Source of the DNA: Pseudophaeobacter flagellatus
GTDB lineage: Bacteria; Pseudomonadota; Alphaproteobacteria; Rhodobacterales; Rhodobacteraceae
Reading direction: 5' to 3'
NCBI RefSeq assembly: GCF_021228235.1
Contig: NZ_JAJQRG010000001.1
Coordinates: 62,001-126,000 of the forward strand
DNA: 64,000 nucleotides
Below the pieces are notes generated by a model. That model made no database searches, was not told the DNA's origin, and saw only the letters and a list, made by a program, of their open reading frames with translations. Both the position numbers and the translations under genes were made by a program. The number at the start of each line of letters is the position of its first letter. The first letter of the stretch is position 1. This document shows positions 10,476-59,657 of the stretch, in pieces.

Positions 10476-10660
10476 CTGATCCCTCCCTAGGGTTGTGGCT
10501 GTTCGCAGGGGCAAGCATGCGCCAGTTGCGCGGGCTTGTGCAAAGGACGTGCCGTCACTTTGGCTGCGGCGCTTTATTGAGCCCAGCAAAGGCGTTGACG
10601 GGCTAGAGACCTCCGCCCAATCTGTCGCAAATATTGCATCACTAACCGAAAGTTCGCATC

Positions 10661-12220
10661 ATGCAGATCTCTTCCATCCTTCGGCGCGCCGCGCAGATCA
10701 ACCCAAACGGGATTGCCACGATATTTGGCGCGCGTCAGCAAAGCTGGAGCGAGATGTTGGAGCGGGTCCAACGTCTGGCAGGGGCCTTGCAAGCCCAGGG
10801 GATGAAGCCGGGGGACCGGGTGGCGCTGGTTTCGCTGAACTCTGACAGATTCATCGAGTATTATTTCGCTGTGGTCTGGGGCGGCGGCGCCATGATGCCG
10901 ATGAATATCCGCTGGAGTGCCGCTGAATGTGCTTATGCGCTAAAGGATGCCGGGGCCGAAATCCTGATCTGTGACGAGGCCTTCAAGACGCTGGCCGAAG
11001 AGATAAAGCCGCAGGTGCCTGGCTTGAAAACCCTGATCTATTGCGGCGATGCGGCAACGCCTGCAGGCATGGCAAACTATGAAGACCTGATCGCGGCAGC
11101 CGATCCTGTGGCCGATGCAGGGCGCGGTGGCGATGATCTGGCCGGGGTGTTTTATACCGGTGGCACAACTGGCTTTCCCAAGGGGGTGATGCTGTCGCAT
11201 ACCAATTTCTATGTGGGCGGCGTGTCCAACGCCCACGATATCAACATGACCGATGGCACCATCTATCTTCATGCGGCCCCAATGTTCCATATTGCCGATC
11301 TGATCTGGTTTTCTGCGCTGACCTTTATGGGGGGCACCCATGTGGTGATCCCCGCCTTCACCCCAGAGGCCGCGCTGGAGGCGATTGAGAAACACCGCCC
11401 CGACCAGACCCTGCTGGTGCCGGTCATGTTGCAGATGATCCTGCAAAGCGACAAACTGGCGCAGACCGATATTTCCTCACTGCGCCAGATCGCTTATGGC
11501 GCATCCCCCATCACCGAGGGAGTGCTGAAAGAGGCCTTTGAAAAGTTCCCGAATGTGGCCTTCCTGCAGGCCTTTGGCCAGACAGAGCTGAGCCCGGTGG
11601 CGACGATCCTGCCCACGGATTACCACGTCTTTGACGGGCCAAAGGCGGGCAAGCTGCGATCGGCAGGGCGGGCAACGCGGGTCTGTGAAATCCGCATTGT
11701 TGATGACACGCATCAGCCCCTGCCCGTTGGCGAGGTCGGGCAGATCGCGGTCAAGGGGCCGGTTACCATGTTGGGCTATTGGAACCAGCCCGAGGTGACG
11801 GCAAAAACCATCATAGATGGCTGGGTGATGACGGGCGATGCCGGCTATATGGATGCAGACGGCTTTGTCTTCTTGATGGACCGGGTGAAGGACATGATCG
11901 TATCAGGCGGCGAAAATGTCTATTCCGCCGAGGTTGAAAACGCCCTGAGCCAGCACCCGGATGTGGCCACCAGCGCGGTCATCGGCATCCCCAGTAACCA
12001 ATGGGGCGAAAGCGTGCATGCCATCGTCATCCTGCACCCTGGCGCGCGGGTCACCGCCGAGGAACTGCAGGCCCATTGCCATGGGCTGATTGCCGGCTAC
12101 AAATGTCCTCGCAGTGTTGAATTCCGGCAAGAACCTTTCCCGCTGTCGGGGGCAAACAAGGTGCTCAAGACCGATCTACGCAAACCCTACTGGCAGGATC
12201 AGGATCGCCAGATTTCCTGA
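10661..12220 (+). CDS. AMP-forming acyl-CoA ligase
   Basis: Class I adenylate-forming enzyme (519 aa) that activates a carboxylic acid to acyl-AMP and then acyl-CoA. The phosphate loop is YTGGTTGFPKGV (about 163-174), followed by FGQTELSP, the MTGDAGY aspartate, the hinge region DRVKDMIVSGGENVYSAEVE and the catalytic lysine in SGANKVLK near the C-terminus. Length and motifs fit medium/long-chain fatty-acid ligases. It is divergent from the carboxylase gene, and a hairpin follows at 12230-12267. No carrier-protein domain is present. Confidence 0.88.
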   Translation: MQISSILRRAAQINPNGIATIFGARQQSWSEMLERVQRLAGALQAQGMKPGDRVALVSLNSDRFIEYYFAVVWGGGAMMPMNIRWSAAECAYALKDAGAEILICDEAFKTLAEEIKPQVPGLKTLIYCGDAATPAGMANYEDLIAAADPVADAGRGGDDLAGVFYTGGTTGFPKGVMLSHTNFYVGGVSNAHDINMTDGTIYLHAAPMFHIADLIWFSALTFMGGTHVVIPAFTPEAALEAIEKHRPDQTLLVPVMLQMILQSDKLAQTDISSLRQIAYGASPITEGVLKEAFEKFPNVAFLQAFGQTELSPVATILPTDYHVFDGPKAGKLRSAGRATRVCEIRIVDDTHQPLPVGEVGQIAVKGPVTMLGYWNQPEVTAKTIIDGWVMTGDAGYMDADGFVFLMDRVKDMIVSGGENVYSAEVENALSQHPDVATSAVIGIPSNQWGESVHAIVILHPGARVTAEELQAHCHGLIAGYKCPRSVEFRQEPFPLSGANKVLKTDLRKPYWQDQDRQIS

Positions 12221-12229
12221 ACGCTCCCT

Positions 12230-12267
12230 GCGCCCCCGAGGGCAGAACAGGCTGCCATCGGGGGCGC
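12230..12267 (+). terminator. Hairpin after the acyl-CoA ligase gene
   Basis: GCGCCCCCGA (12230-12239) pairs perfectly with TCGGGGGCGC (12258-12267). An inner GGCAG/CTGCC stem extends the structure. No T-run follows. Ten bases after the stop codon. Confidence 0.65.
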
Positions 12268-12314
12268 GGGCTAGATGCGAAATGGCAACATAGCAGCGCC
12301 TTGCGCGCACCTGC

Positions 12315-12335
12315 CTTGACCCGGTCGACGTCAAG
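12315..12335. promoter_or_regulatory. Perfect palindrome upstream of the TonB-dependent receptor
   Basis: CTTGAC (12315-12320), 9 bases, GTCAAG (12330-12335) form an exact inverted repeat 71-91 bases before the receptor start. The position suits an operator or promoter element for iron control. The regulator is not identifiable by eye. Confidence 0.4.
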
Positions 12336-12405
12336 AGGTAGCGCGCAGATACCCAGCGAAATGTCAGGCAAAAATCGAAACCGCAAGAAGAGGCGGAAAC
12401 CTGAC

Positions 12406-14505
12406 ATGTTTTTGCACCGAACCACCGTATCACTTTGGGCTTTGATGGCGGCCACGCCAGCCATTTCCCAGGTTGTACAACTCGAAGAAATCCTTGTTTC
12501 CGGCGATAGTGCCGATGCCTATTTTGGCGAGAGTGTCGCGCTGGACACTGGCAGCACCTCCAAGACTGGTGATGCGATTGTCGAAACGCCGCGCTCTGTT
12601 GCGGTGATCACCGCCCAGCAGATCGCTGAACGTGGTGCGCAAAACGTCGAACAGGCGCTGCAGTATTCGGCCGGCGTTCTGGGCGGGCAGTGGGGCCAGG
12701 ATGCCCGCGCCAACTGGTCCCTGGTGCGCGGCTTTAGGCCCAGCACACTGCATGATGGGCTGCCGTCGCGCTATGGCAATTACAATGACACCAGCCCCGA
12801 ACCATTTTTGCTGAACAGTGTTGAAGTGCTGAAAGGTCCGGCCTCTGGGCTTTATGGCAGCGGTTCTGTGGGCGGGGTGGTCAATACCACCTCTAAAACC
12901 GCCGCACAGGATAGCGATAACATGATTCAGCTGCAGGCCGGGTCGAACAGCCGCGCCCAGTTGGGGGTTGATGTCAGTGGCAATTTGAACGCCGACGGCA
13001 CGCTGCGCTATCGCTTTGTCGGTCTGCTGCGCGATTCAGACGGTCCGGTTGATTTCTCAACCGATGATGCCCTTGCGCTTGCGCCCTCGATCACCTGGCG
13101 GCCGAATGATGATACCGAGCTGACAGTCCTCGCCAATTATCAGAAAAACGATGGCAGTCCGCTGATCCAGTTTGCCTCGCTCTACGGCACGCTGCTGCCT
13201 GCCACAGGCTTTGGCAATGGCACTTTCCTGGACAGCGACACCTTTGTCGGTGAACCCGGATTTGATATGTACAATTCCGAGCAGCGTTCTTTGACCGCGA
13301 TGTTCAAGCACCGTTTCAACGCAACATGGAGCGTCAACGCAAGCGCGCGCTATCTGGAAGGTGAAGCGCTGTATCAGCACGCCTGGTGGGCCTTTGATAA
13401 CACTGGAACTGGCCGCTACAATCCCGATGGCACCATCAATCGCACCTTTTACCGGGCCGAGAATGAGCTGAAAACCTGGGGGCTGGACAGCTATGCCACC
13501 GCTGAATACGCGCTTGGCGGGGCCGAGATGCGCACCATCATCGGCGCCAGCTATACCCAAGGCTATTATGACAGCGATACGGGGTACGGCGCGCAGGTTG
13601 GGCCGATTGATCCCTTCAACCCGTCTTACACTGGCTACAACCCGATCACAGTGACCGACACGGCAGGCAATACCATCACCGAATGGGGCCTGTATGTGCA
13701 GCAGCGCGCAGTGTTCCAGGACCGTTTGTTTGTGGATCTGGGGCTGCGCTATAGCGATATCGAGACGGGCACCAGCAACGGCAGTTTTGGGGCGACAACC
13801 GTGGCTGCCACAGACAGCGCTTGGACCGGGAACGCGGCGGTCCTCTACCGCTTTGACAATGGGTTGGCGCCCTATCTCAGCTATGCGGAAAGTTTCCGTC
13901 AGGATGCAATTGGCGCGGATGTCAACGGCAGACCCTTTGAACCAACCCGCGGCGAGCAGGTCGAACTGGGTCTGAAATATCAACCCGTTGGCACTGATAC
14001 CCTGCTGACCGCTGCGGTGTTTGATCTGACCAAATCTAACATGACGGTTGCTGATGCCGCCAATCCGGGTTTCCAGGTGCAGACCGGAGAGGCCAGCGCC
14101 AAGGGCTTTGAATTTGAAGCCTTCCACCGCTTTGGCGATCTGTCTGTGAACCTGGCCTATACCTATCTCGATACCGAAGACGCCGATGGTGATCATATCG
14201 CGCAGGTGCCTCAGAACGCCGCCTCGCTCTGGCTGAGTTATGCACCCGTTGATGGGGCCTTGGCAGGTTGGAACCTGGGCGCAGGTGCGCGCTACAATGG
14301 GGCCGCCTGGGGGGGATCCAATACCTATCTGACCCCGTCCTATACGCTGTATGATGCGGCAGTTTCTTATGGGCGGGACAACTGGCTGGTGGCGCTGAAT
14401 GTCCGTAACCTCACGGATGAGCGCTATGTAACCACCTGTCAGTCGGGGGCCTGCTACTTTGGCGAAGGGCGCAATCTGGCCCTGACCCTGACCTCGAAGT
14501 TCTGA
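12406..14505 (+). CDS. TonB-dependent siderophore receptor
   Basis: Outer-membrane beta-barrel receptor (about 699 aa) for a ferric siderophore. A signal peptide covers about residues 1-20 (MFLHRTTVSLWALMAATPA). A TonB-box-like EEILVSG follows near 25-31, then the plug domain (PRSVAVITAQQI, VEVLKGPASGLYGSGSVGG) to about 180 and a barrel ending in Phe, as outer-membrane proteins do. The start at 12406 gives the signal peptide. An upstream in-frame ATG at 12301 would bury it. An 8-bp inverted repeat (12361-12368 with 12400-12407) brackets the ribosome binding site and overlaps the start codon. It is convergent with the importer/TonB operon that probably completes the uptake route. Confidence 0.92.
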   Translation: MFLHRTTVSLWALMAATPAISQVVQLEEILVSGDSADAYFGESVALDTGSTSKTGDAIVETPRSVAVITAQQIAERGAQNVEQALQYSAGVLGGQWGQDARANWSLVRGFRPSTLHDGLPSRYGNYNDTSPEPFLLNSVEVLKGPASGLYGSGSVGGVVNTTSKTAAQDSDNMIQLQAGSNSRAQLGVDVSGNLNADGTLRYRFVGLLRDSDGPVDFSTDDALALAPSITWRPNDDTELTVLANYQKNDGSPLIQFASLYGTLLPATGFGNGTFLDSDTFVGEPGFDMYNSEQRSLTAMFKHRFNATWSVNASARYLEGEALYQHAWWAFDNTGTGRYNPDGTINRTFYRAENELKTWGLDSYATAEYALGGAEMRTIIGASYTQGYYDSDTGYGAQVGPIDPFNPSYTGYNPITVTDTAGNTITEWGLYVQQRAVFQDRLFVDLGLRYSDIETGTSNGSFGATTVAATDSAWTGNAAVLYRFDNGLAPYLSYAESFRQDAIGADVNGRPFEPTRGEQVELGLKYQPVGTDTLLTAAVFDLTKSNMTVADAANPGFQVQTGEASAKGFEFEAFHRFGDLSVNLAYTYLDTEDADGDHIAQVPQNAASLWLSYAPVDGALAGWNLGAGARYNGAAWGGSNTYLTPSYTLYDAAVSYGRDNWLVALNVRNLTDERYVTTCQSGACYFGEGRNLALTLTSKF

Positions 14506-47357: not shown

Positions 47358-48020
47358 TTAGGCGCGAAACCCCGCCTCGCAAAAGTCGAGCAGCTCTGCC
47401 GTCAGGTCCTCGGCGGTTTCGGCCTGGGACAAGCCGACGATGCGCCAGCGTGAGGTGCACAGAGACAGCATGGCAGAGACCATAAAGACAAAGCAGGCGC
47501 TGATTTTCTGTGTATCGGCTTCGGGCAGGGCCTTTGCGATTTCTTCCAGAAATACCCTGGCGGTTGGGTCAAAACAGCGCTGGGCGATCTGTTGCCAGCG
47601 CGGATTCGACGACACATGTGCAATCAGGCGCCCATAGGCCGACCAGTTGGCACCGCCATGCAGGGTTTGATGGATGAAGGGCGCAAGGAAGCAGTGCAGC
47701 ACCTGGCGCAGGGGCAATGCCGACTCTGCGTCTGATTGCGCCTGTGCTTTTGCAGCTGCCAGCGCCTGTAGTCTGAGGGTGGACAACTCTTCGGCACGCC
47801 GGGCCACCACGGTGGCAAACAGCGCCTCTTTGCTGCCACCGTGATGGCTGACCAGCGCCCCCTGCACACCGGCGGCGCGGGCGATGTCACGAATCGACGC
47901 GCCTTCAAAGCCACGGTCGGCAAAGAGTTGTTCTGCCGCGTCAAATATTCGGTCTCGGGTAGCAAGAGAGCGCTGGCTTGGCGCGCGTTGCCTCTGATTT
48001 TTGTGTAGTTTTTCTGTCAT
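47358..48020 (-). CDS. TetR-family regulator divergent from the monooxygenase/NRPS cluster
   Basis: Transcriptional regulator (220 aa). The N-terminal helix-turn-helix (about 18-65) reads TRDRIFDAAEQLFADRGFEG, ASIRDIARAAGVQGALVSHHGGSKEALF. The C-terminal ligand domain is helical. It is divergent from the monooxygenase gene with an 80-base gap that contains a near-perfect palindrome (48062-48087), so repression of the neighbouring cluster is the likely role. Inducer unknown. Confidence 0.85.
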   Translation of the reverse strand: MTEKLHKNQRQRAPSQRSLATRDRIFDAAEQLFADRGFEGASIRDIARAAGVQGALVSHHGGSKEALFATVVARRAEELSTLRLQALAAAKAQAQSDAESALPLRQVLHCFLAPFIHQTLHGGANWSAYGRLIAHVSSNPRWQQIAQRCFDPTARVFLEEIAKALPEADTQKISACFVFMVSAMLSLCTSRWRIVGLSQAETAEDLTAELLDFCEAGFRA

Positions 48021-48061
48021 GTCAGAATTACCTTGCCCTATTTTTAACAGTCGTTCAATTT

Positions 48062-48087
48062 AAATGGGTATCCAGCGGGTACCATTT
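48062..48087. promoter_or_regulatory. Candidate TetR operator
   Basis: A near-palindrome centred on GGTATCC-AGC-GGGTACC, with AAATG and ATTT flanks. One arm has one extra base. It ends one base before the GGGAGG ribosome site of the monooxygenase gene, a position where bound repressor would block transcription. Confidence 0.45.
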
Positions 48088-48100
48088 GGGAGGATGATGA

Positions 48101-49447
48101 ATGACGGCAGGGCCAGAGGCAGCGCAGGACAGCGCTGTCAGAGCAAAATATGCGCTGATCGGGGCCGGGCCAATGGGGCTGGCCATGGCCAAGGTGCTGA
48201 AGCAACAAGGCATTCCCTTTCAGGGATTTGAACTGCATTCAGATGTGGGTGGCCTGTGGGATATCACGGCACCGCGCTCTACCATGTATGACAGCGCGCA
48301 TCTGATTTCGTCCAAAACGATGACGGAGTTTGCCGATTTCCCAATGGCTGATAATGTGGCCGACTACCCGTCGCACCGCGAAATGCGCCGGTATTTTCGC
48401 GATTTCGCACGTCATTTTGATCTCTATCAGCACTATGCGTTTTCCTGCGAAGTGCTGTCCTGTGTTCCGCTTGGGGCCTCGGGGGCGGGCTGGCGCCTGA
48501 CCTGGCGCGATGGCGCCGGGTCAGATCATAGCGATGTTTTCGCCGGTGTTCTTATCGCCAATGGCACCCTGGCCGAACCCAATACCGTGCAGTTCAAGGG
48601 CGAGTTCAGCGGCAGCCAGATCCATTCTGCCCAGTATCGTGATCCGCGCCAGTTTGCCGATAAACGGGTGCTGATCGTCGGCGCAGGCAATTCCGGCTGC
48701 GACATTGCTGTTGATGCGATCCACCATGGCAAAAGCTGCGATATTTCTATGCGGCGGGGCTATTACTTTGTGCCCAAATACGTTTTTGGCAAGCCAGCCG
48801 ATACCTTGGGAGGAGCCATTCGCCTGCCGATGTGGCTCAAACGTCGGGTGGATGGCATGATCCTGAAATGGTTCGTGGGGGATGCGCAGAAATACGGCTT
48901 CCCCAAGCCCGATTACGCTCTCTACGAGAGCCACCCGGTGGTGAATTCGCTTATCCTGTTTCATGCTGGTCATGGCGATCTGACGGTGCGCCCCGATATT
49001 GATCGGGTCAGCGGCAAGACCGTCTATTTCACCGATGGCAGCCAGGGTGACTATGACATGATTCTGACGGCCACCGGATATTTGCTGCACTACCCATTTA
49101 TCGACAAGGAGCTGCTGAACTGGCAGGGGGCGGCACCGCATCTCTATCTCAACTGTATGCATCCAGAACGCGATGACCTGTTTGTGCTGGGCATGGTCGA
49201 GGCCTCGGGGCTGGGGTGGCAGGGGCGCCATGAACAGGCCGAGATGGTGGCGCGCTACATCACCGGGCTTGGCGATAAGGCACCCGCAGCGCAGCGGTTG
49301 CAGGCCACCAAAGCCGCCGATTTTACGCGGGCAACAGGCGGTATGCAGTATCTCAAGCTTGCCCGGATGGCCTATTACGTCGACAAGGCGACCTACCGCA
49401 AATCCGTCACCGGCTGGATCTCGGCGTTGACGCAGGGGGGCACATGA
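48101..49447 (+). CDS. Flavin-containing monooxygenase (FMO-like)
   Basis: FAD/NADPH-dependent monooxygenase (448 aa). The FAD Rossmann motif is LIGAGPMGLAMAK (about 16-28). The FMO identifying motif FxGxxxHxxxY appears as FSGSQIHSAQY (about 168-178). The NADPH motif is VLIVGAGNSGCDIA (about 188-201). Near the C-terminus GLGWQGRHEQAE lies before the end. It probably oxygenates a nitrogen, a sulfur or a ketone (Baeyer-Villiger); the substrate is unknown. GGGAGG lies 7 bases before the ATG. It overlaps the transporter gene by 4 bases. Confidence 0.85.
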   Translation: MTAGPEAAQDSAVRAKYALIGAGPMGLAMAKVLKQQGIPFQGFELHSDVGGLWDITAPRSTMYDSAHLISSKTMTEFADFPMADNVADYPSHREMRRYFRDFARHFDLYQHYAFSCEVLSCVPLGASGAGWRLTWRDGAGSDHSDVFAGVLIANGTLAEPNTVQFKGEFSGSQIHSAQYRDPRQFADKRVLIVGAGNSGCDIAVDAIHHGKSCDISMRRGYYFVPKYVFGKPADTLGGAIRLPMWLKRRVDGMILKWFVGDAQKYGFPKPDYALYESHPVVNSLILFHAGHGDLTVRPDIDRVSGKTVYFTDGSQGDYDMILTATGYLLHYPFIDKELLNWQGAAPHLYLNCMHPERDDLFVLGMVEASGLGWQGRHEQAEMVARYITGLGDKAPAAQRLQATKAADFTRATGGMQYLKLARMAYYVDKATYRKSVTGWISALTQGGT

Positions 49448-50346
49448 AGGATCTTGACGCCGTCGTCTTGAACTTCAGCGCCTCTAGCCTGCTGCTGATG
49501 AATGCCATCCTGGCGATTATCATGTTCTCGATTGCCCTGGATCTGAAAACCAGTGATTTTCACCGCCTGTTGCGGGCACCAAGGCCGGTCCTGACCGGGT
49601 TGATTGCGCAGTTTATCCTGCTGCCGGGCCTGACCTATCTGCTTATCCTGGTGTTGCAGCCGCAGGCGTCGATTGCGCTGGGGCTGATCCTGGTGGCGGC
49701 CTGTCCGGGGGGCAATATCTCTAATTTCATCACCCATAGGGCCGGGGGCAATGCGGCGCTGTCGGTGTCGCTGACTGCCTTTGCCACGGTTGGGGCCATT
49801 GTGATCACGCCGCTGAATATTGCCTTTTGGGGGCAGCTCTATGCCCCGGCGCAGGCGATTTTGCAGCGGGTGCATATTGATCCGGTGCAGGTGGGTGTGA
49901 CTGTCTCTTTGATGTTGATCCTGCCGCTGGTGCTGGGGATGGTGCTGAACAACCGCCGTCCTGCGCTGGCCAACCGGGTCAGGCACCCGCTGCAGAACCT
50001 GTCGATGCTGATTTTTCTGGCCTTCGTGGTGCTGGCGCTGGCGGCAAACTGGGGGTTTTTTCTGGACTATGCGCAATATGTCGGTGCCTTGGTTGTGGTG
50101 CATAATGCCCTTGCGCTGGCGACGGGCTATGGCGCAGCGCGGCTGGCTGGGCTGTCGGCCTATGACCGGCGCGCGATCACCATTGAAACCGGCATCCAGA
50201 ATTCGGGCCTGGGGCTGGTGTTGATCTTTGGCTTTTTCAACGGGCTGGGTGGCATGGCAGTGGTGGCGGCCCTTTGGGGGATCTGGCATGCTGTCTCTGG
50301 CCTATGCCTGGCCCATGTCATTTCCCGTACAGAGGCGCAGCTATGA
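49444..50346 (+). CDS. Bile acid:sodium symporter (BASS) family transporter
   Basis: Inner-membrane transporter (300 aa) with about nine to ten helices. Family signatures are MFSIALDLKTSDF, CPGGNISNFITHRAGGNAALSVSLTA (here CPGGNISNF then GNAALSVSLTA) and ETGIQNSGLGLVLIF. BASS proteins usually import organic anions with sodium. In this operon it could import a precursor or move the product. Overlapping starts on both sides show tight coupling. Confidence 0.85.
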   Translation: MKDLDAVVLNFSASSLLLMNAILAIIMFSIALDLKTSDFHRLLRAPRPVLTGLIAQFILLPGLTYLLILVLQPQASIALGLILVAACPGGNISNFITHRAGGNAALSVSLTAFATVGAIVITPLNIAFWGQLYAPAQAILQRVHIDPVQVGVTVSLMLILPLVLGMVLNNRRPALANRVRHPLQNLSMLIFLAFVVLALAANWGFFLDYAQYVGALVVVHNALALATGYGAARLAGLSAYDRRAITIETGIQNSGLGLVLIFGFFNGLGGMAVVAALWGIWHAVSGLCLAHVISRTEAQL

Positions 50347-51272
50347 CCAAGATTTTGATTACCGGTGCCGCCGGGGATGTGGGGTCGGCCCTGTTGCAGG
50401 AACTGGCCGCAAGCCCCTATGACGTGGTCGCAACCGATCTGCACCGCCCCGCCAACCTGCCTGCAGGCATGCGCTTTGTTCCCATGGATGTCCGCGCCGG
50501 AGCGCCGGGGCTGATTCTCGGTAATGAACAGCCGGATGTGGTGATTCACCTGGCCTCGATTGTGACACCAACCAGCCGCACCTTTGCCTATTCGGTGGAT
50601 GTCGAGGGCACGCGCAATGTGTTGAATGCTTGTCTCTTCCACCGGGTTAAGCGCCTGGTGGTGACCTCCTCGGGGGCGGCCTATGGCTATCACGCAGATA
50701 ACCCTGTGCCGCTGGTCGAAAGCGACCCGCTGCGCGGCAATATGGAATTCGCCTATTCCGACCACAAGCGCCAGGTCGAAGAGATGCTGGCCAAGGCCCG
50801 CGCCGAAACACCAGAGCTGGAGCAGGTGGTGCTGCGGGTGGGAACTGTGCTGGGCGCGGGTATGGAAAACCAGATCACCGCGCTGTTTCACAAACCGCGC
50901 TTGCTGGCGCTTTTTGGCAGCGAGAGCCCCTTTGTCTTCATTTGGACCCGAGATCTGGCTCGGATCCTGAAACGCGCGATCGAGGCTGCCCCGCAGGGGA
51001 TCTTCAACGTCGCTGGCGATGGAACCATGGGCGTTTCCGATCTGGCGCGGGCCTTGAAAAAGCCGGTTCTGCGCTTGCCTGCCTGGGGGGTGAAACTGGC
51101 GCTGGCGATTGCGCACCCGTTGGGTCTATCACGCTATGGCCCGGCGCAGGTGCGCTTCTTGCAATACCGGCCGGTGCTGGACAATACCAAGCTGAAGCGG
51201 GATTTTGGCTATGTGCCAGAACTGACAAGCGCCGAGGTTTTTGCGTTGTGGCAAAAGGCAGCCGGGTTATGA
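50343..51272 (+). CDS. NAD-dependent epimerase/dehydratase (extended SDR)
   Basis: Extended short-chain dehydrogenase/reductase (309 aa). The NAD motif is ITGAAGDVGSAL (about 6-17). VIHLASIV follows, then the catalytic Ser region VTSSGAAYG and the YxxxK pair in AYSDHKRQ. It resembles UDP-sugar epimerases and 3-beta-hydroxysteroid-type dehydrogenases. The start at 50343 overlaps the transporter stop by 4 bases and its end overlaps the next SDR by 4 bases. Confidence 0.82.
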   Translation: MTKILITGAAGDVGSALLQELAASPYDVVATDLHRPANLPAGMRFVPMDVRAGAPGLILGNEQPDVVIHLASIVTPTSRTFAYSVDVEGTRNVLNACLFHRVKRLVVTSSGAAYGYHADNPVPLVESDPLRGNMEFAYSDHKRQVEEMLAKARAETPELEQVVLRVGTVLGAGMENQITALFHKPRLLALFGSESPFVFIWTRDLARILKRAIEAAPQGIFNVAGDGTMGVSDLARALKKPVLRLPAWGVKLALAIAHPLGLSRYGPAQVRFLQYRPVLDNTKLKRDFGYVPELTSAEVFALWQKAAGL

Positions 51273-52087
51273 GCGTGCCGCCGGGTGGGCGGGGAAAGAC
51301 CGCCCTCATCACGGGCGGGGCTGGCGGGCTGGGGCTGGCGCTGGACGCGGGGCTGCGGGCGCGCGGCTGGTCGACGGTGCTGATTGATCTGCCGGGGCCG
51401 CAATTGCAGGCGCTGAAACCATTGCCCAACCGCCGGACCTATGGCTGCGATCTGACCAATCGGGCGGCGCTGCGCCGCCTGTGCCAAGAGATCAGCAGCA
51501 CCCAGGCCTCGATTGATCTGGTGATCTATAATGCAGGCATCACCTGGATTGGTGCCAGCGCCGATCTCAGCGATGCGGACCATAGAAAAGTGTTTGATAT
51601 CAATTATTTTGCTGCCACTGATATGGCGCAAGCGTTGCAGGCAGATCTGCGGCGCGCAGGCGGCACCCATCTGGCGATTTCCTCTGTGGCGGGGTTTTGC
51701 CCGCTGCACCACCGCACCGCCTATGCCGCCAGCAAACACGCGCTAGAGGGATTTTTCAAATCCCTGCGCTGCGAGGAGAAGCCATTTGGCGTGCGGGTCG
51801 TGATTGCCGCACCCAGCTTTATTGCCACCAACCTTGGCCGCCCAGAGATCGCGGATGCACAGGCGCAGACAGCAGCGGCAGGCCAGAGTGGCATCGCCCG
51901 CCCCGGATCGGCGGCGGATGGACTCGATTATATGAGCCCGGAAAGCGCGGCGCAGCATATTCTGACAGGGCTGGACCGGCGGCGCGATTTCATTCCCGTT
52001 GGCCGCGTCGCCCGCCTCTCGGTGCTGCTCAACCGGTACGCGCCCCGGATTTTTGCGGCGGTGATGACAGGCAGGATCGCGCGGTAA
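51269..52087 (+). CDS. Short-chain dehydrogenase/reductase (classical SDR)
   Basis: NAD(P)-dependent oxidoreductase (272 aa). The cofactor motif is TGGAGGLGLAL (about 15-25), with NAG at VIYNAGIT. The catalytic Ser is in AISSVAGF and the catalytic Tyr/Lys in AYAASKHALEGF. The ATG at 51269 is inside the preceding stop. Last of four coupled genes. A 136-base AT-rich gap separates it from the NRPS genes. Confidence 0.85.
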   Translation: MSVPPGGRGKTALITGGAGGLGLALDAGLRARGWSTVLIDLPGPQLQALKPLPNRRTYGCDLTNRAALRRLCQEISSTQASIDLVIYNAGITWIGASADLSDADHRKVFDINYFAATDMAQALQADLRRAGGTHLAISSVAGFCPLHHRTAYAASKHALEGFFKSLRCEEKPFGVRVVIAAPSFIATNLGRPEIADAQAQTAAAGQSGIARPGSAADGLDYMSPESAAQHILTGLDRRRDFIPVGRVARLSVLLNRYAPRIFAAVMTGRIAR

Positions 52088-52169
52088 CCCACCACAGGCT
52101 AGGGGCGGCCCCCTGGCGGCAGCCAACCTGCGTCTTGCTTTATCTGGACGGGAAGAATATTTCTCATTT

Positions 52170-52198
52170 TTGTTTAAATTAGACTATTGGTTTAGCAT
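52170..52198 (+). promoter_or_regulatory. Candidate promoter of the NRPS genes
   Basis: TTGTTT (52170-52175), 17 bases, TAGCAT (52193-52198) in an AT-rich stretch that stands out from the GC-rich surroundings. The leader would be about 20 bases to the GTG start at 52224. Confidence 0.35.
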
Positions 52199-52223
52199 TG
52201 TACCGGACTTTTGAGGGATGCCC

Positions 52224-54053
52224 GTGACACATTTTGGAGCCCAATTACGGGCGGGGCTGAAGCTGCGGGCCGACCTGCCAGCCCTTATTTGTGACGACCT
52301 TGGCCCGCTGAGCGGCACCACTTGCCTTGTGGCAATGGATCAGTTGCGCGCAGGTCTTGCCGCTGCCGATCTGCCAGCAGGCAGCCGTATTGCCATAATT
52401 GCCCCCCAGCCGCGCCATGCGGCCCTTGCCTTTGTGGCCTGCCTGCAGAGCCATGTGGCAGCGCCGCTGAATCCCGACTATACGCGCGATGAATTTCTAT
52501 TTTATCTCAATGACCTGCAGCCTGGTCTGGTACTGCTTGGCGCGGGGGCAACTGCGGCAGCCGAGGCGGCCGTTGCAAGCTGTGGCCTGCCCAGCCTGCG
52601 CCTCGGGGATGAGGTGTTTCAAGCCGCGCAAAAGGCCAGCCAGCTCGGGGTTGTGGGGGGCCGCCTGCCTGCGCTCTCGGCGGCTGCTGCTCCGGGGTTG
52701 ATCCTGCATACCTCTGGCACGACTGCTCGCCCCAAGATGGTGGCCCTGTCCCAGGAAAACCTTGCCTGCTCTGGCACCAATATCGCAGGGTCCTTGCGGC
52801 TGGGCGAAGAAGATATTTCGCTTTGTGCCATGCCGCTGTTTCACATCCATGGCCTGATGGCCTGTTTAGGGGCGGCGCTGGTGGCGGGGGGCGCTGTGGT
52901 CCTGGCCGGGCGGTTTCAGCCAGAGCGCTTTGTTGACTGTCTGCTGCGGCACAGGCCCACCTGGTTTTCGGCCGTGCCAACCCTGCATCTGGCGCTGATG
53001 CATCATCTTGAGCAGCGCGCCGCGCCGATGGATCATGCCCTGCGCTTTATCCGCTCTTCTTCGGCGCCGCTGCCGCCCTCGATCATCGCCCGGCTGGAAG
53101 GCTATTTTGATGCGCCGGTGATCGAGGCCTATGGCATGACCGAGGCAAGCCATCAGATCGCCAGCAACCCCTTGCCGCCCGCAGTACGCAAACCCGGCAC
53201 CGTGGGGCAGGCCTTTGGGACATCTATTGCCATTCTGAATGACCATGGCACCGCCTGCGCCCCCGGTGCGGTGGGCAATGTGGTGATCACCGGCGCGGGG
53301 GTCACGCCCGGCTATGTGGAAAACCCAAGCGCCAACCTAGAGGCCTTTCAGCCGACAGGCTTCTGGACCGGTGACCTTGGCTCCCTGGATAAGGATGGCT
53401 ATCTTCGCCTGACCGGGCGGTGCAAGGAAATCGTCAACCGTGGCGGGCAAAAGATCTCTCCGCGCGAAATCGACGAAGCGCTGATTGCAATCCCCGGCAT
53501 CACCGATGCGGTGGCCTTTGCGCAGCCCCATGCCAGCCTTGGTGAAGATCTGTTGGCGGCGGTCTGTCTTGCGCCGGGCGCGGATCTGACAGGCGAAGCG
53601 ATCCGGTTGCGCCTGTTTGAACGGCTGGCGGATTACAAGGTGCCTAGTCAGATTGCCCTGGTTGATGCGATCCCCGTCGGGGCCACCGGCAAGCGACAGC
53701 GCCTGCAGATGTGGTCTGCTCTGCAGGGGTATTTCTCTGCGCCGATGCGGGCCCCTGTGACTTCTGTTGAAATTATCCTGTGCGAATTTACCGCCGAGAT
53801 CCTGGGGCAAGAGCGCATGGGGCTGGATGATAACTTCTTTAATCTAGGCGGTAATTCCATTCTGGGTGTTGAACTTTCCATCACCCTCGGAGAGCTGCTG
53901 GGTTGCTATATCCCGCCGATAGTGATCTTTCGCCATCCCACCCCCGCAGGCCTGTCCGCATTTGTGCTTGGACGGCTGAGCGATCAGGATCTGGCACAGC
54001 TGGATCAGGTGGTGCGCAGCCTCGCCGAGGTGGAGGGAGCAGCAGGGACATGA
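52224..54053 (+). CDS. Adenylation-carrier protein didomain (NRPS loading module, oxalate-CoA-ligase-like)
   Basis: About 609 aa. GAGGG sits 6 bases before the GTG at 52224 but directly abuts the ATG at 52218, so GTG is the better start (residue numbers here count from that ATG). Adenylation domain about 20-500: LHTSGTTARPKMV (163-175), YGMTE (305-309), WTGDLG, GRCKEIVNRGGQKISP and catalytic Lys492 in GATGKRQR. Its style resembles CoA ligases of the oxalate-CoA-ligase type more than amino-acid A domains. A carrier protein (about 515-585) follows with DDNFFNLGGNS, where Ser547 takes phosphopantetheine. It probably loads a carboxylic acid for the NRPS downstream. It overlaps the TPP-enzyme gene by 4 bases. 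No phosphopantetheinyl transferase gene is in the window. Confidence 0.85.
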   Translation: MTHFGAQLRAGLKLRADLPALICDDLGPLSGTTCLVAMDQLRAGLAAADLPAGSRIAIIAPQPRHAALAFVACLQSHVAAPLNPDYTRDEFLFYLNDLQPGLVLLGAGATAAAEAAVASCGLPSLRLGDEVFQAAQKASQLGVVGGRLPALSAAAAPGLILHTSGTTARPKMVALSQENLACSGTNIAGSLRLGEEDISLCAMPLFHIHGLMACLGAALVAGGAVVLAGRFQPERFVDCLLRHRPTWFSAVPTLHLALMHHLEQRAAPMDHALRFIRSSSAPLPPSIIARLEGYFDAPVIEAYGMTEASHQIASNPLPPAVRKPGTVGQAFGTSIAILNDHGTACAPGAVGNVVITGAGVTPGYVENPSANLEAFQPTGFWTGDLGSLDKDGYLRLTGRCKEIVNRGGQKISPREIDEALIAIPGITDAVAFAQPHASLGEDLLAAVCLAPGADLTGEAIRLRLFERLADYKVPSQIALVDAIPVGATGKRQRLQMWSALQGYFSAPMRAPVTSVEIILCEFTAEILGQERMGLDDNFFNLGGNSILGVELSITLGELLGCYIPPIVIFRHPTPAGLSAFVLGRLSDQDLAQLDQVVRSLAEVEGAAGT

Positions 54054-55108
54054 CGGTCAGGATCGACGGAGCCGCGTCGGGGCACCGGGCTGAAACTGCT
54101 GGGTCGCGGGCGGCATTGTTGCGGACCCGGTTGCAGCAGCGGCAGGCTCCCAGTGGACATCAGGCCATTACGCAGGCCTTCTGGACTGCAGGGATCACCC
54201 ATATATACGCGCTGCCGGGCTACCCGATGTATGCCACCCTTGGCGCCTGTGCCGAAAGCGGGCTGCAGGTCATTGGCTGTCGAACTCGGTCAGGCGCGCT
54301 GAGCGCGGCGCTGGCGCATAACTATCGCTGTGGGGCGTTTCGGGCAGTGGCGCTGTGCTCGCCCGCGCCGGGGGTGACCAATTCGATCACGGGCCTCTGT
54401 GACGCCAAAAGCAACCACTGGCCCATGGTGTTGATTACGGCCCTGTACGAGAATGCCCCCGATGATCGCACCAGCGATGATGGCGACTCTGGGCCAGGTG
54501 CCGCTGCACGTGTCGCCGGGCCGGGGGCCAATTTCCAGGATTTTGATGGTGCAGAGATCGCCATTGCCAGCTGCAAGGCGGTGGTGCGGCTCACCGCGCG
54601 TGACGGGCTGGCGGCGGGGCATCTGCTCTGGCCGGTGCAGCAGCCCTTTTCGCGGATGACCCTGGGGCAGAATGGCACCATTGGCCTAGGCATTCCCTTT
54701 GCCTTGGGCAGCGCTATGGCGCAGCGGGACCAGGATGCAGATCGCCTGGTTGTGGCGCTGGTGGGGGACGTCGGCTTTGGGCTGTCGTCAAGCGAGTTGG
54801 AAACCGCCCGCCGACATGGCGCCCGTCTGGTTGTTGTGGTCGCGGATAATGGCGGCATCAATGGCCGCGTTTTTCAGGACAACTGGTTCCCGGGCGAAGG
54901 CGGCCCGGATGTGCTGCGCTATCATCAGCAGGTGGATTATGCCGCCATTGCGCGCGGTTGGGGCGCGCGTGCTGTGGTCACCCCGACGCCACGGGCCCTG
55001 CGGCAGGCGCTGAGCAGCGCGCTGGTGGCCGAGGGTCCGACGGTGATTTCGGTGCCGATGGAAAAATGTTTCCCACAGGAGCAGACAGAGGAACAGGCCA
55101 ATGGGTGA
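54050..55108 (+). CDS. Two-domain thiamine-diphosphate enzyme with altered catalytic site
   Basis: A TPP enzyme of 352 aa. The PYR domain (about 34-165) resembles acetolactate synthase and 2-hydroxyacyl-CoA lyase (HIYALPGYP, SPAPGVTNSITGL). The PP domain (about 200-345) binds diphosphate and metal: VGDVGF (Gly239, Asp240) and VVVADNGGING (Asn267). The central domain of large family members is absent, as in phosphonopyruvate decarboxylases. The PYR Glu that activates the cofactor, normally in RHEQ or RHEG, is replaced: the sequence reads RTRS with Arg80. It may use an unusual mechanism, like glyoxylate carboligase, or be non-catalytic. It overlaps both neighbours (4 and 8 bases), so it belongs to the assembly line. 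Confidence 0.82.
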   Translation: MTVRIDGAASGHRAETAGSRAALLRTRLQQRQAPSGHQAITQAFWTAGITHIYALPGYPMYATLGACAESGLQVIGCRTRSGALSAALAHNYRCGAFRAVALCSPAPGVTNSITGLCDAKSNHWPMVLITALYENAPDDRTSDDGDSGPGAAARVAGPGANFQDFDGAEIAIASCKAVVRLTARDGLAAGHLLWPVQQPFSRMTLGQNGTIGLGIPFALGSAMAQRDQDADRLVVALVGDVGFGLSSSELETARRHGARLVVVVADNGGINGRVFQDNWFPGEGGPDVLRYHQQVDYAAIARGWGARAVVTPTPRALRQALSSALVAEGPTVISVPMEKCFPQEQTEEQANG

Positions 55109-58100
55109 CGTACAGGGCTCTTTGCGCCAACGGCTGCGCGGAGTGTTGCGCCAGTCCCGGCGGCCATTGGCACAGCAGATCCGTCGCCCCGCCGGTGATG
55201 TGGTGGTGCCTGCGCCGCTGGTGCAGCAAAACTTCTGGTGCCTGGATCAGTTCGCGCCCGGTCAGGGGCTGGCAAACGTGAACCGCGCCTGGCAGGTTGA
55301 AGGGGCGTTTCAGCCAGAGGCCTGCCAATCCGCGCTGCAGCGCCTGACCTCCCAATACGATTGCCTGCGATGCAACCTGTTCGAACAGGGCGAAGAATTG
55401 CAGATGATCATCAAGGAACACCAAGAGCCAGATTTTGCCCTGGTCGATCTGCGCCAGAATGAGACGGAGCTGGCGGCGCGTATGGCGGCTGAAAGCCAGC
55501 GCCCCTTTGCGGATGGGGGCGGGCCATTGCTGCGCCTGCGCGCCTATCGCTTGACGGATCAGCGCTGGCTGCTGCATCTGGTCTATCACCACGCCATCCT
55601 GGATGGCTGGTCGCTGACCCAATTCTGCCAAGAGCTGGGGCAGCTCTATGCCCAGGCGGATCTGGTGCCCCAGCGCCCGGCCTATGATTTTGCCGATTAC
55701 GCCAAGGCGGCGGGCCAGGTGGGAAAAATCCCGCCAGCGCGGTTGGCATCCCAATCAGACCTGCAACTGCCCTATGACTACGCACCGCTTGCAGTGCTAA
55801 GCTATCGTTGCAAATCCACGCCGGTCACCATTGATGCCGCCAGCCGTGCCGCCGTAGAGACCCTGGCCGCAGAACTGAGCCTCTCGCCGGGGGCGGTGCT
55901 GATGGCGGCTCTGCGTCTGGCCCTGTTCCGAATTTCGGGTCAGCGCGATTTTTGCCTTGCCAATACAATGATGAACCGCAATGCGCCGGGCCTGCAATCC
56001 ATGCTTGGTGCCTTTGTTCAAAGCCTGCCAATTCGCAATGCCTTGCCGCAGGGGATCAGTTTTGCGCAGCTTTGCCAGGGGGAACAAGTCTCTCTGACCG
56101 AGGCCCTGACAGGGGTAGAAGACCGCAAACAGGACGGGGATAATAACGGGGCGCAGCCCCCCGGCGAAACCCCCTGTGACGTGCTGTTGAACTATCGTGG
56201 CTTTGCCACTGGTAGGCTGGCTCTTGCGGGCTGTGAGGTCAGCCCATACGCGCAGGCCAGCGGTGCCAGCCCCTTTGCGCTGGTGCTCAACCTTGAAAAC
56301 ACTGCGACAGGCTATAGTGGCGAGTTGCTGTGGCATACGGCGCGCTTTGAGGCGGAAACCTGCAGGCGGATCGTGGCGCAGATCCTGGCCAGCCTTGCCG
56401 CTGGGCTAAAGGCACCAGACGCGGCGATTGGCGAGGATGTGACTGAAATGGCTGCCGCTGCTTCCTGCGATGCCTTGCCCAGCCCGTCGTCCAGCCAGCC
56501 GTCTGCTGCGATGCCTGACGGCCTGGCCCCAGCAGTGGGGCAGCTGCTAGAGCAGGCCTTCGCCCGGTGGCCAGAGCGCCGCTCGATACGCATGACAGGC
56601 GATGATCCCGTCGCGCAGCCCTGGCGCTACCGCGATCTGGATCTTGCCAGTGCCGCCTGGGCCAATGCTCTTTTGCGGGCTCCGGGTGGGCCTGGCGACC
56701 TGGTGGCGCTGGCGCTGCCACGGGGGCAGGAATTTGTGGCGGCGCTGATTGGTATCCTGCGCAGCGGGCGCGCCTTTTTGCCCCTGTCACCGCAGGATCC
56801 GCCAGAGCGGTTGAAACGCATTATGCACAACGCCCAACCCAGCCACGTGATTGCCGAGGCGGCGCTGGCGCAAACGCTGGGGGTCGCGCCCTTATTGCCC
56901 CTGCCGCCAGCGGCAGAGGGGGCGGCGATGGCGGTGCCCTTTGTCCCCCGCCAACCCGAGGATCTGGCCTATGTTATGTTCACCTCCGGCTCTACCGGGG
57001 TGCCAAAAGGCGTGGCCATCCCACATCGCGCCCTGGCCAACCACCTGGCGGGAACCTGCGCCGTCTTTGCCCCCCAGCCGGGGGATCGCCTGCTTTCTGT
57101 CAGCAGCACGACCTTTGACAGCATCCTCCATGAGGTGCTGTTCCCATTGGTGAGCGGCGGTGAACTGGTGATGGTGCCAGAGGCGCTTCGCCGCGATCCC
57201 TGGCACCTGTGCGATTGCTTGAAACGCATCGCGCCGCATCATTTCTTTGCCACCCCTTCGCTGTGGCGCATGCTGCTAGAGGCCGGGTTGCCGAGCCTGC
57301 CGCACCTGCAGGCGCTGATCGGCGGCGAGAGGATGAGCCCGGCGCTGGCGGCACGGATCCTGCCACAGGTGGGGCGGCTTTATAACGTCTATGGCCCGAC
57401 CGAGGCCACGGTCTTTACCACCTGGAAACAGGTGCTGCCTGAGGCCTGTGAGGGCGCGGACAGGCGTCCCGTCGGGTCTGATTTGGGACAGCCCTTTCCA
57501 GGCTATACTGTTACCATCATGGGTGAAAATGGCCAGCCAGCCTGGCCGGGTGCCATGGGGGAGATCTGGATTTCAGGCGCCGGTGTCGCAACCGGGTATT
57601 ATGGGGATGCAGAACGTACCACCCAGAGCTTTGTCTCGACAGGCGCACATCCTGGCCCAGCACTTAGCCCTGTACAGGGTCAGGATGTGCCGGGGCGCCG
57701 CTGGTATCGCAGTGGCGATTTGGGGCGGCTGCAGCTGGACCCGGGTTCTGGTCGGCAGCAGCTTGCCTATCTGGGGCGGCTGGATGATCAAGTGAAAATT
57801 AGCGGCCAGCGGGTCGAACCCGCAGAGGTTGAAAATCTGATCCAGACCAGCGGCCTGACCCCGCAAGCGGCGGTCGTCGCCGCCGGAGAGACCGGGCGCA
57901 GGGTTCTGGTTGCCTTTTATGTCACCAAGAACAGCAGCGCCGATATGGATGCGAGCCGGGCCAGCGATGCAAGCGCAGCCCTGCGGCGCTATCTTCAGGC
58001 CAATCTGCCCTCGACCTGGGTGCCGGGGCTACTGCAGCCCTGCGCCAGTCTGCCGCTGAATGCTTCGGGTAAAATCGACCGTGCCGGGCTGTTGCACCAG

Positions 58101-59657
58101 GCGCAGGAGGCCCTGAAGGGGCAGGGGCAAAGCCTGTCTCTGAACCGTGATTTGGCCCCTGTGGTGATCCAGGCCTGGAAGCAGGTTCTGGGCAGTATGC
58201 CCACAAGCGACAGACAGGATTTCTTTGCCTGCGGCGGGACCTCTCTGTTGATGATCCGGCTGTTGGCGGTGATCCGTGCGCGCACCGCCTGCCACCTGCC
58301 GGTGGCCGAAGCCTTTGGCGATCCGACCCCGGCGGGGTTGACGGCCCTGTTGGACAGGGCTGTGCCGCTTGATCTGCATGCGGCGCTGATTTGTGCCAAG
58401 CAGGGGGGCGCGGCAGATCCGCTGGTGATGCTGCCAGGTCTGGTGGATACCGGGCCAAACCTGACGGATCTTTTGGGCCATGCGCCGCCGGATCGCAGCG
58501 TTTATCAGCTGCAGCGTTCAGCAACCCTTGTGTCTGATGCAAAAGTCAGTTTTTCCGATCACACCCGCTATTTTGCCAAGGTCTTGCATCAGGGCTTTCC
58601 GGCGGATGGGCTGCATCTGGCCGGGTTTTCCTATGGCGGTGTCGAGGCTTTTGAAACGGCACGCCAGCTGGTGGCGCTCAAGGCGCCGCCTGTCGGGCTG
58701 ACGGTGATCGATCACGGGCTGCGCTTTCACAGACCCCAGCCGATCAATCCCACCTGGGCGGCCGCTTCGATTGCGGCGGAAACCCGGCGTCGGGCGCATG
58801 GGCTGCGACTGCTGGACGCAAATATGACCCTGGTGCGGGCAGAGCGCCCGGGCCTGGTGTCACTGGCAATGATCGCCCTTGGCTGGGAGGATTTTGTCAG
58901 TGGCGAGGTGGCCGTGCATGTGCTGCCCGGCACGCATGACGACATGCTGCATGCGCAGGCAGCGCAAACCATGCAGGTGATCGAAGGGCAGGTGCAGCCA
59001 GAGTTCATGATTGTCAGCCTACCGGGTGCGGCCGATCGGCGGCGGGTGGTGCGTCTGATCGCACAGAGGCAATTCAAAACGGCGCATGATGTGATCTGTG
59101 GGGTTAGCCGTGAACATGCGCACCACCCCTGGTCGGTTCTGATGGCGGATCGATTGGGTAGGCAGCTGGGGCAGGATCCAGAGAGGCTGTTGTCAGACTG
59201 GATTGAAATGGTCCCCGAGGTGGTTCCGCCGGGGGTGCCGGATCTGGCCTGGCACGCGGGTCGTGCCGAGGTGCAACTGCGGCTGGGGGCTAGGGAAGCA
59301 GCGCTACGTACGCTGCAGGCGGCGCGGGCCTGCGTCGCCGCTGCGGTCAAAGCGGCGGGGCGGGGCGATGCGCGCACTGCGGCACCATCCGGCGCGATGA
59401 TCCGCAATCTTGAGGTCTGTTATGGCGATGTGCTGCAACAGCTTGGTCGGTTTGAAGCGGCAAGTGTGGTGCTGGAAACTGCCGCTGACCAATATGGCTA
59501 TACGCCCAGGATCTGGCGGCTGCTGGGCCTGAGCTTGGCAAAACAAGAGCACTATGCCAAGGCCTTGCCGCTGTTGCAGCGGGCGGCCGTTGCCCCCAAG
59601 GTCAATAAAGAGGTGCAAACCTGGCTGGCCCGTGCGGTGCAGGCGGTTGAAGGCTGA
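55101..59657 (+). CDS. NRPS module C-A-PCP-TE with C-terminal TPR-like extension
   Basis: Non-ribosomal peptide synthetase, 1518 aa. Condensation domain about 35-440, intact HHAILDG (163-169). Adenylation domain about 475-1000: FTSGSTGVPKG, YGPTEAT (764-770), YRSGDLGR and Lys991 in NASGKIDR. By-eye specificity residues are D673 S674 H677 A717 I740 G742 V763 V771 F772 K991, which match no code I can assign. PCP about 1015-1085: FFACGGTSL, Ser1048. Thioesterase about 1105-1295: GFSYG, Ser1177, with likely Asp1204 and His1279. About 220 helical residues follow, TPR-like. No epimerase, oxidase or MbtH is seen. It should join the loaded starter to one amino acid and release a small product. Confidence 0.92.
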   Translation: MGDVQGSLRQRLRGVLRQSRRPLAQQIRRPAGDVVVPAPLVQQNFWCLDQFAPGQGLANVNRAWQVEGAFQPEACQSALQRLTSQYDCLRCNLFEQGEELQMIIKEHQEPDFALVDLRQNETELAARMAAESQRPFADGGGPLLRLRAYRLTDQRWLLHLVYHHAILDGWSLTQFCQELGQLYAQADLVPQRPAYDFADYAKAAGQVGKIPPARLASQSDLQLPYDYAPLAVLSYRCKSTPVTIDAASRAAVETLAAELSLSPGAVLMAALRLALFRISGQRDFCLANTMMNRNAPGLQSMLGAFVQSLPIRNALPQGISFAQLCQGEQVSLTEALTGVEDRKQDGDNNGAQPPGETPCDVLLNYRGFATGRLALAGCEVSPYAQASGASPFALVLNLENTATGYSGELLWHTARFEAETCRRIVAQILASLAAGLKAPDAAIGEDVTEMAAAASCDALPSPSSSQPSAAMPDGLAPAVGQLLEQAFARWPERRSIRMTGDDPVAQPWRYRDLDLASAAWANALLRAPGGPGDLVALALPRGQEFVAALIGILRSGRAFLPLSPQDPPERLKRIMHNAQPSHVIAEAALAQTLGVAPLLPLPPAAEGAAMAVPFVPRQPEDLAYVMFTSGSTGVPKGVAIPHRALANHLAGTCAVFAPQPGDRLLSVSSTTFDSILHEVLFPLVSGGELVMVPEALRRDPWHLCDCLKRIAPHHFFATPSLWRMLLEAGLPSLPHLQALIGGERMSPALAARILPQVGRLYNVYGPTEATVFTTWKQVLPEACEGADRRPVGSDLGQPFPGYTVTIMGENGQPAWPGAMGEIWISGAGVATGYYGDAERTTQSFVSTGAHPGPALSPVQGQDVPGRRWYRSGDLGRLQLDPGSGRQQLAYLGRLDDQVKISGQRVEPAEVENLIQTSGLTPQAAVVAAGETGRRVLVAFYVTKNSSADMDASRASDASAALRRYLQANLPSTWVPGLLQPCASLPLNASGKIDRAGLLHQAQEALKGQGQSLSLNRDLAPVVIQAWKQVLGSMPTSDRQDFFACGGTSLLMIRLLAVIRARTACHLPVAEAFGDPTPAGLTALLDRAVPLDLHAALICAKQGGAADPLVMLPGLVDTGPNLTDLLGHAPPDRSVYQLQRSATLVSDAKVSFSDHTRYFAKVLHQGFPADGLHLAGFSYGGVEAFETARQLVALKAPPVGLTVIDHGLRFHRPQPINPTWAAASIAAETRRRAHGLRLLDANMTLVRAERPGLVSLAMIALGWEDFVSGEVAVHVLPGTHDDMLHAQAAQTMQVIEGQVQPEFMIVSLPGAADRRRVVRLIAQRQFKTAHDVICGVSREHAHHPWSVLMADRLGRQLGQDPERLLSDWIEMVPEVVPPGVPDLAWHAGRAEVQLRLGAREAALRTLQAARACVAAAVKAAGRGDARTAAPSGAMIRNLEVCYGDVLQQLGRFEAASVVLETAADQYGYTPRIWRLLGLSLAKQEHYAKALPLLQRAAVAPKVNKEVQTWLARAVQAVEG

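Follow-up and report, generated by a model that had tools for sequence, protein, structure and literature searches.

A 64,000-nt stretch of the Pseudophaeobacter flagellatus genome (contig NZ_JAJQRG010000001.1 of assembly GCF_021228235.1, positions 62,001–126,000; hereafter the window, to which coordinates refer) carries a TetR regulator gene and, running away from it on one strand, seven genes for a flavin-containing monooxygenase (FMO), a BASS-family transporter, an epimerase of the short-chain dehydrogenase/reductase (SDR) type, a classical SDR, an adenylation (A) domain fused to a peptidyl carrier protein (PCP), an enzyme dependent on thiamine diphosphate (ThDP) and a nonribosomal peptide synthetase (NRPS) composed of condensation (C), A, PCP and thioesterase (TE) domains. 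A preliminary description of this DNA had taken the seven genes for one undescribed biosynthetic cluster under TetR control. Here they are analyzed as two gene sets, a five-gene operon (TetR to SDR) and a three-gene cassette (A-PCP to NRPS). The features are as follows.

47358..48020, minus strand: TetR regulator, PsrA-like (Pfam TetR_N and TetR_C_30)
48037..48064, no strand assigned: inverted repeat CCTATTTTTAAC-AGTC-GTTCAATTTAAA, probable TetR site in the FMO operon promoter (comparison with relatives)
48101..49447, plus strand: flavin-containing monooxygenase, FMO-like (Pfam)
49444..50346, plus strand: BASS/SBF family transporter (Pfam SBF)
50343..51272, plus strand: NAD-dependent epimerase/dehydratase, extended SDR (Pfam Epimerase)
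51269..52087, plus strand: classical SDR, last gene of the five-gene operon (Pfam adh_short)
52135..52160, plus strand: promoter-like element TTGCTT...GAATAT ahead of the cassette (alignment)
52218..54053, plus strand: A-PCP, oxalate-CoA-ligase-like A domain plus carrier protein (Pfam AMP-binding and PP-binding; PDB search with the L018 orthologue)
54050..55108, plus strand: ThDP enzyme of the 2-hydroxyacyl-CoA lyase/oxalyl-CoA decarboxylase (HACL/OXC) branch, 352 amino acids, with an internal in-frame deletion (Pfam TPP_enzyme_N and TPP_enzyme_C; PDB search with L018)
55101..59657, plus strand: NRPS, C-A-PCP-TE with a C-terminal TPR stretch (Pfam Condensation, AMP-binding, PP-binding, Thioesterase, TPR)

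All eight open reading frames first described were present and their domains were borne out by Pfam. The near-universal overlaps also held, four junctions being 4-base ATGA overlaps and the ThDP and NRPS genes sharing 8 bases, and the gap reported between the two halves exists, its size being 130 bases (52088–52217) rather than 136. The same eight genes stand in the same order in three intact loci of the genus (L016–L018), with 49–84% amino-acid identity. Because the order is conserved there and the ratio of nonsynonymous to synonymous substitution rates (omega) is below 0.5 for every gene, the eight frames are real genes. A terminator consensus scan of the window returned 14 sites against a shuffle mean of 11.1 (s.d. 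3.6), without clear excess over the shuffles.

The two halves are inherited separately

A protein search found the FMO in 39 of 388 family genomes (E ≤ 1e-120), comprising this genome and 38 from other genera. Twenty-nine of the 38 other-genus matches were short loci that stop before or within the 3' side of the epimerase gene and are therefore uninformative on the SDR; FMO, BASS transporter and epimerase were together in all 29, and TetR in 28. At the 10 loci (of the 38) available at greater length, the complete set TetR-FMO-BASS-epimerase-SDR was found in the same order in every case, and no cassette gene was detected in any of them (E ≤ 1e-8, >40% identity); nine show sequence past the SDR, and in one the contig stops 238 bases beyond it. 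Thus TetR-FMO-BASS-epimerase-SDR (47358–52087) forms an operon widespread among Rhodobacteraceae. A substrate resembling a lipid or an organic acid is a guess from the types of regulator and transporter, and a literature search on FMO, symporter and TetR gave nothing matching in the titles and opening abstract lines of the matches listed.

The genus to which this genome belongs was surveyed through 12 genomes, this one and Roseobacter sp. MED193 included. The FMO was present in 10 of them (E ≤ 1e-60) and, in nine of these, its operon lies between the same flanking transport genes; around the five-gene operon of the tenth, G398 (locus L036), those flanking genes were not found. All seven genes occur in the same order in four of the 12 genomes, this one included. 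Among the 10 FMO-bearing genomes nothing of the NRPS half was detected in three, and two hold frameshifted remnants only.

The cassette also occurs without its neighbour. With the window ThDP protein as query, the ThDP enzyme was found in two of 394 family genomes (E ≤ 1e-20), this one and G364. The cassette of G364 (L020, the same locus as L070) and that of Rhodobacteraceae EL129 (L069, beside his genes) lack the five genes in their flanks, and whole-genome searches found no FMO orthologue, the best match in G364 having 31% identity and EL129 giving none at E ≤ 1e-20. A cassette behind the five-gene operon was seen only in the genus of MED193. No further copy came from a class-wide ThDP profile search, in which four of 385 genomes matched at E ≤ 1e-60 (this one and three with HACL/OXC-type enzymes that carry the catalytic Glu), or from a phylum-wide one (one of 398 genomes at E ≤ 1e-62, this one), and a plasmid search gave no match. 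A scan of genome contigs with two peptide patterns returned 182 stretches and four loci; since the patterns are narrow, distant copies could be missed.

The claim of a single cluster had been tied to joint inheritance of its halves, and the conservation survey found that they are not inherited together. Because of this separate inheritance the single seven-gene pathway is unsupported, and the appearance of one novel cluster is an artefact, produced by two gene sets of separate inheritance being neighbours.

Regulation of the two units

The best NCBIfam model for the TetR protein was PsrA, a type of regulator that binds long-chain fatty acids, at 61.7 bits, far under the equivalog cutoff of 300. 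Of 20 loci compared, 18 have the pattern TTNNAC-N4-GTTCAA in the interval that separates the starts of TetR and FMO; L079 and L083 depart from it by one mismatch. In the window it has a single exact match, ahead of FMO, the next best being three mismatches away at 22413, and the stricter TTWKAAC-N4-GTTCAA-N0-2-TWA matched once in this genome, the reversed control pattern giving none. PsrA sites given in PMC13104628 include TTCAAACN4GTTTGAA, which the sequence here, TTGAAC-N4-GTTCAA, resembles; the resemblance fits the TetR_C_30 domain of the regulator. Two things set this TetR apart from PsrA-type regulators: its PsrA score, far under the cutoff, and the different operon that it probably controls. 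Since the pattern occurs only before FMO, control by the PsrA-like TetR is probably confined to the five-gene operon and exerted through the predicted site at 48037–48064.

The cassette has a conserved promoter-like element of its own at 52135–52160. The motif TTG(C/A)T..GAATA aligned upstream of A-PCP in the six genus loci compared (window, L016–L019, L034), and TTGCTT was found there in L020 too. A consensus promoter scan did not list this element; it returned three promoter-like sites against a shuffle mean of 3.1. TetR control of all seven genes, as first proposed, thus agrees neither with a predicted operator confined to FMO nor with a separate promoter-like element before the NRPS half.

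A second repeat, GGTATCC/GGGTACC at 48067–48083, was considered as a conserved operator and rejected, as its letters differ in relatives. At this position, immediately before the ribosome-binding site of FMO, a short inverted repeat is found in most genus loci, with letters that vary and pairing that is kept (GCACCT/AGGTGC in L016, GCACCC/GGGTGC in L017–L019, GCGCC/GGCGC in L034–L035). The arms are perfect in six of 10 genus loci and imperfect in the window and L033, and no repeat was seen in L036 and L037; eight of 10 loci from other genera have no perfect repeat, L080 has a 4-base one and L085 was left unscored. The element resembles a small RNA hairpin with covarying arms. An imperfect palindrome also lies at 47963–47980, within the TetR gene toward its 5' end.

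Families and key residues of the cassette enzymes

For the PDB searches L018 orthologues were used as queries, the L018 A-PCP being 71% identical to the window copy. The four best sequences for the A domain were oxalate-CoA ligases (5ie0, 329.9 bits; 6qjz, 319.2; 8aff, 310.4; the fourth, 235.1), and the next kind was a malonyl-CoA synthetase at 198.4 bits. The best NCBIfam model for the window protein was the FadD7 family, at 348 bits, under its cutoff of 650. The motifs FIRSxSA and TEA(S/T)H...NPLP, which we take to contact oxalate, are present in all six copies with small changes (RLIRSSSA and TEAAH in L020, RFVRSSSAAL in L069). A-PCP does not have the build of a stand-alone ligase, as a PP-binding domain is fused to it, with the serine of its GGNS motif in all six copies.

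The 17 best PDB sequences for the ThDP enzyme were all HACL, 2-hydroxyacyl-CoA synthase (HACS) or OXC, with 153.7 bits for HACL/HACS and 48.3 bits for glyoxylate carboligase (GCL). At the position of the catalytic Glu of HACL/HACS, the residue that activates ThDP, all five intact copies have Gln. The position of AcHACL Q128 is occupied by Gln in HACL, acetohydroxyacid synthase (AHAS) and GCL and by Glu in OXC (E121), as tabulated in PMC13327070 (Table 1); the six cassette copies all have Gln, so that the HACL-type residue is retained and the OXC Glu is absent. According to PMC11271303, R156 and R276 of ApbHACL/S bind ADP, and R260 and R400 bind acyl-CoA. In the five intact copies these columns, located by hand with the 8vzc alignment of the PDB search as a guide, have Pro (R156), variable residues (R276), Lys (R260) and His (R400), which sets the cassette enzyme apart from HACL/HACS, its best matches. 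The Mg-motif Asp is found in all nine aligned rows. The closest ThDP relatives outside the cassette, L072–L074, are of HACL/OXC type with Arg at all four columns; a neighbouring frame in L072 and L074 resembles, by eye, a CaiB-type CoA-transferase.

The NRPS core motifs HHAILDG, GGTS and GFSYG were read in the window translation, in agreement with its C, A, PCP and TE domains. With positions placed by hand, the specificity code of its A domain is DSHFIGVVFK in the window, DSYF(V/I)GVVFK in L016–L020 and DSYFTGGVFK in EL129.

A shortened ThDP gene and a decaying cassette

The window ThDP protein has 352 amino acids, against 545–583 in five intact copies. One continuous block has no counterpart in it, 223–235 residues in the four aligned intact copies and 228 in L016. 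RLTARD and GLAAGH flank the missing block, and therefore the end of the pyrimidine-binding domain, the whole middle domain and the start of the pyrophosphate-binding domain have been lost; in line with this, Pfam found no middle-domain match between TPP_enzyme_N and TPP_enzyme_C. At the catalytic Glu position the window protein has Arg, against the Gln of the intact copies. AlphaFold models were of low confidence both for an intact enzyme (mean pLDDT 52.4, pTM 0.46) and for the window one (55.8 and 0.50). We judge the window enzyme to be damaged; an assembly error behind the deletion is possible. With some 228 core residues lost, any product made by this strain would probably be independent of ThDP, and the pathway is probably impaired here.

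In other genomes of the genus the cassette ranges from intact to absent. The NRPS was found in five of 12 (E ≤ 1e-100), and the whole cassette is intact in three, G394, G396 (MED193) and G403. In G400 (L019, 5541–10373) an in-frame deletion fuses A-PCP at about residue 300 to the NRPS at about residue 192, so that the front half of the A-PCP A domain runs on into the back half of the NRPS C domain within one open frame of 1610 amino acids, and no ThDP match is left at the locus. G401 and G402 hold cassette fragments mutually out of frame, with stops in all three frames. G395, G397 and G398 have the FMO operon only, and G340 and G399, whose FMO matches reach only 31–32% identity, have neither operon nor cassette. 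None of these last five gave an NRPS match above 36% identity; other NRPS or ligase genes are present, G395 and G397 holding other multi-kb NRPS loci. In the own genome, G000:C24:22791-29202 gave more NRPS-like matches, with open frames of 1700 and 2195 amino acids, and at 8697–14505 the window encodes a carboxyltransferase with a biotin domain, an AMP-binding ligase and a TonB-dependent receptor.

A tree of the operon plus its flanks separates the window and L037 from all other loci (support 100) and groups L017 with L018 and L016 with L034/L035 (100). With outgroups, the operon tree places L036 outermost (98) and joins the window to L037 with a support of only 48. The NRPS tree sets L020/L069 outside everything else and the window outside the remaining copies from the genus (100). 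L019 is placed in conflict, with L016 in the NRPS tree (85) and with L033 in the operon trees (88 and 97). The simplest reading is that the cassette was gained once at this place in the genus and then lost repeatedly. At least three lineages then decayed independently (window/L037, L034/L035 and L019/L033), and the decay events in the genus probably number four or five.

Over the computed pairs, omega was 0.05–0.24 for operon genes and 0.12–0.35 for cassette genes; both units have therefore been under purifying selection, the cassette less strongly. The ThDP gene gave 0.25–0.34 over its remaining codons. Among NRPS domains the highest value was 0.47, for the condensation domain (L019–L016), and the N-terminus gave 1.07 over 33 codons (window–L016). 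A special relaxation of the window A-PCP and NRPS is unsupported, as omega rises across nearly all genes: from the L016–L018 pair to the window–L016 pair it goes up 1.35–2.1 fold in 12 of 13 genes, FMO and flanks included, and down in dn1, with dS close to saturation.

A proposed pathway and its alternatives

We propose two transcription units at this locus, the second combining oxalyl-type loading, a carrier-bound ThDP step and a single NRPS module, with the ThDP enzyme broken in this strain; we give about equal weight to this whole reading being right or wrong. Unit 1, TetR-FMO-BASS-epimerase-SDR, would be repressed by the PsrA-like TetR at 48037–48064. In unit 2, A-PCP would activate oxalate or a close analogue and load it on its own carrier domain. 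The intact ThDP enzyme, presumably derived from HACL/OXC and apparently not built to grip CoA, would act on the carrier-bound thioester, generating a one-carbon carbanion that may add to an aldehyde, to give 2-hydroxyacyl-PCP, or be protonated to formyl-PCP. The C-A-PCP-TE protein would couple this acyl unit with a single aliphatic amino acid, and the TE would release a small N-acyl amino acid. We infer every reaction from the homology of the A domain and the ThDP enzyme, from the residue changes and from the aliphatic A code. An oxalate-like acid and an amino acid are the probable building blocks of a small molecule made by the three-gene set. The earlier idea of a starter acid, one amino acid and a ThDP step thus suits the three-gene half and not the whole seven-gene set. 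A more specific version is tentative, and we expect it rather to fail than to hold: the Glu-less enzyme would be a carboligase that turns oxalyl-PCP into a formyl-anion equivalent, adds it to an aldehyde and passes the 2-hydroxyacyl-PCP to the NRPS module.

Several points weigh against the proposed pathway. The assignment of the NRPS A code to a small aliphatic residue is our assumption, made by hand comparison. In the NNGG motif of the cassette ThDP enzymes the first Asn has become Asp, the second being kept, and Gln in place of the catalytic Glu could mean low activity or another reaction. That A-PCP and NRPS of this strain show no extra relaxation relative to FMO fits a recent deletion, or a cassette that still works without the full ThDP enzyme. 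The Lys at R260 retains the charge, so CoA may still be bound. AcHICL/S, a CoA enzyme of this branch, also has no ADP site, as described in PMC11271303; the loss of R156 and R276 alone is therefore no argument for a carrier-bound substrate.

An unlikely alternative is that the ThDP enzyme works like GCL or AHAS and uses free 2-oxo acids to make the starter acid, which A-PCP then activates, so that the carrier is never touched. GCL lacks the catalytic Glu and has Val there, and the cassette enzyme likewise lacks it. Gln at the Q128 position is common to AHAS, GCL and HACL (PMC13327070, Table 1). However, the replacing residue is Gln and not Val, the enzyme is much closer in sequence to HACL/OXC (153.7 bits) than to GCL (48.3 bits), and the A domain is closest to oxalate-CoA ligase, whose partner reaction is thioester based.

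Plain carrier-bound decarboxylation of oxalyl-PCP to formyl-PCP, which would yield an N-formyl amino acid, is decidedly unlikely. An oxalate-ligase-like A-PCP beside an OXC relative does mirror the route in which oxalyl-CoA synthetase (AAE3/Pcs60) and OXC convert oxalate into formyl-CoA, these being the nearest families of the two cassette proteins. However, the position of the OXC Glu is Gln in all six copies, as in HACL, AHAS and GCL (PMC13327070, Table 1). The cassette differs from that route also in a ligase with its own carrier, a ThDP enzyme without the ADP/CoA arginines and catalytic Glu, and an NRPS module that comes next.

The reading that the 352-amino-acid ThDP protein is functional, a compact enzyme of two domains, is very unlikely. 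There are ThDP enzymes of such compact build, with no middle domain, the deletion is in frame, the start/stop overlaps are retained and omega over the remaining codons is 0.25–0.34; but the deletion also takes conserved ends of the flanking domains, GPxFVEV and DSGL, present in intact copies, the catalytic position is Arg rather than Gln, and the same cassette is decaying in other genomes of the genus. A single seven-gene pathway under TetR, suggested by one strand, tight overlaps within each half and a shared gene order in four of 12 genus genomes, is scarcely credible, since in its strong form the separate inheritance of the halves refutes it.

Biological meaning

For annotation, the locus is a lesson: because genes adjoin and overlap in a single genome, two units of separate inheritance were taken for one novel cluster. 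The 12 genomes of the genus show a small biosynthetic cassette at several points on its way to loss, all at one place. Among forms of NRPS starter chemistry the cassette is a rare variant, and MED193 suits its study better than this strain does. Literature searches, judged by titles and opening abstract lines among the matches listed, did not find this chemistry, or a cluster with this gene set, described, and a search on oxalyl and adenylation domain gave nothing matching, none of the matches listed holding the word 'oxalyl'. If the proposed pathway is correct, a ThDP enzyme working on the carrier-bound acid would feed one-carbon units from oxalate into nonribosomal peptide synthesis, a starter logic that would be new; an enzyme of HACS/OXC type would act on a carrier protein rather than on CoA, which to our knowledge is new, and would possibly be a useful carboligase freed from CoA.

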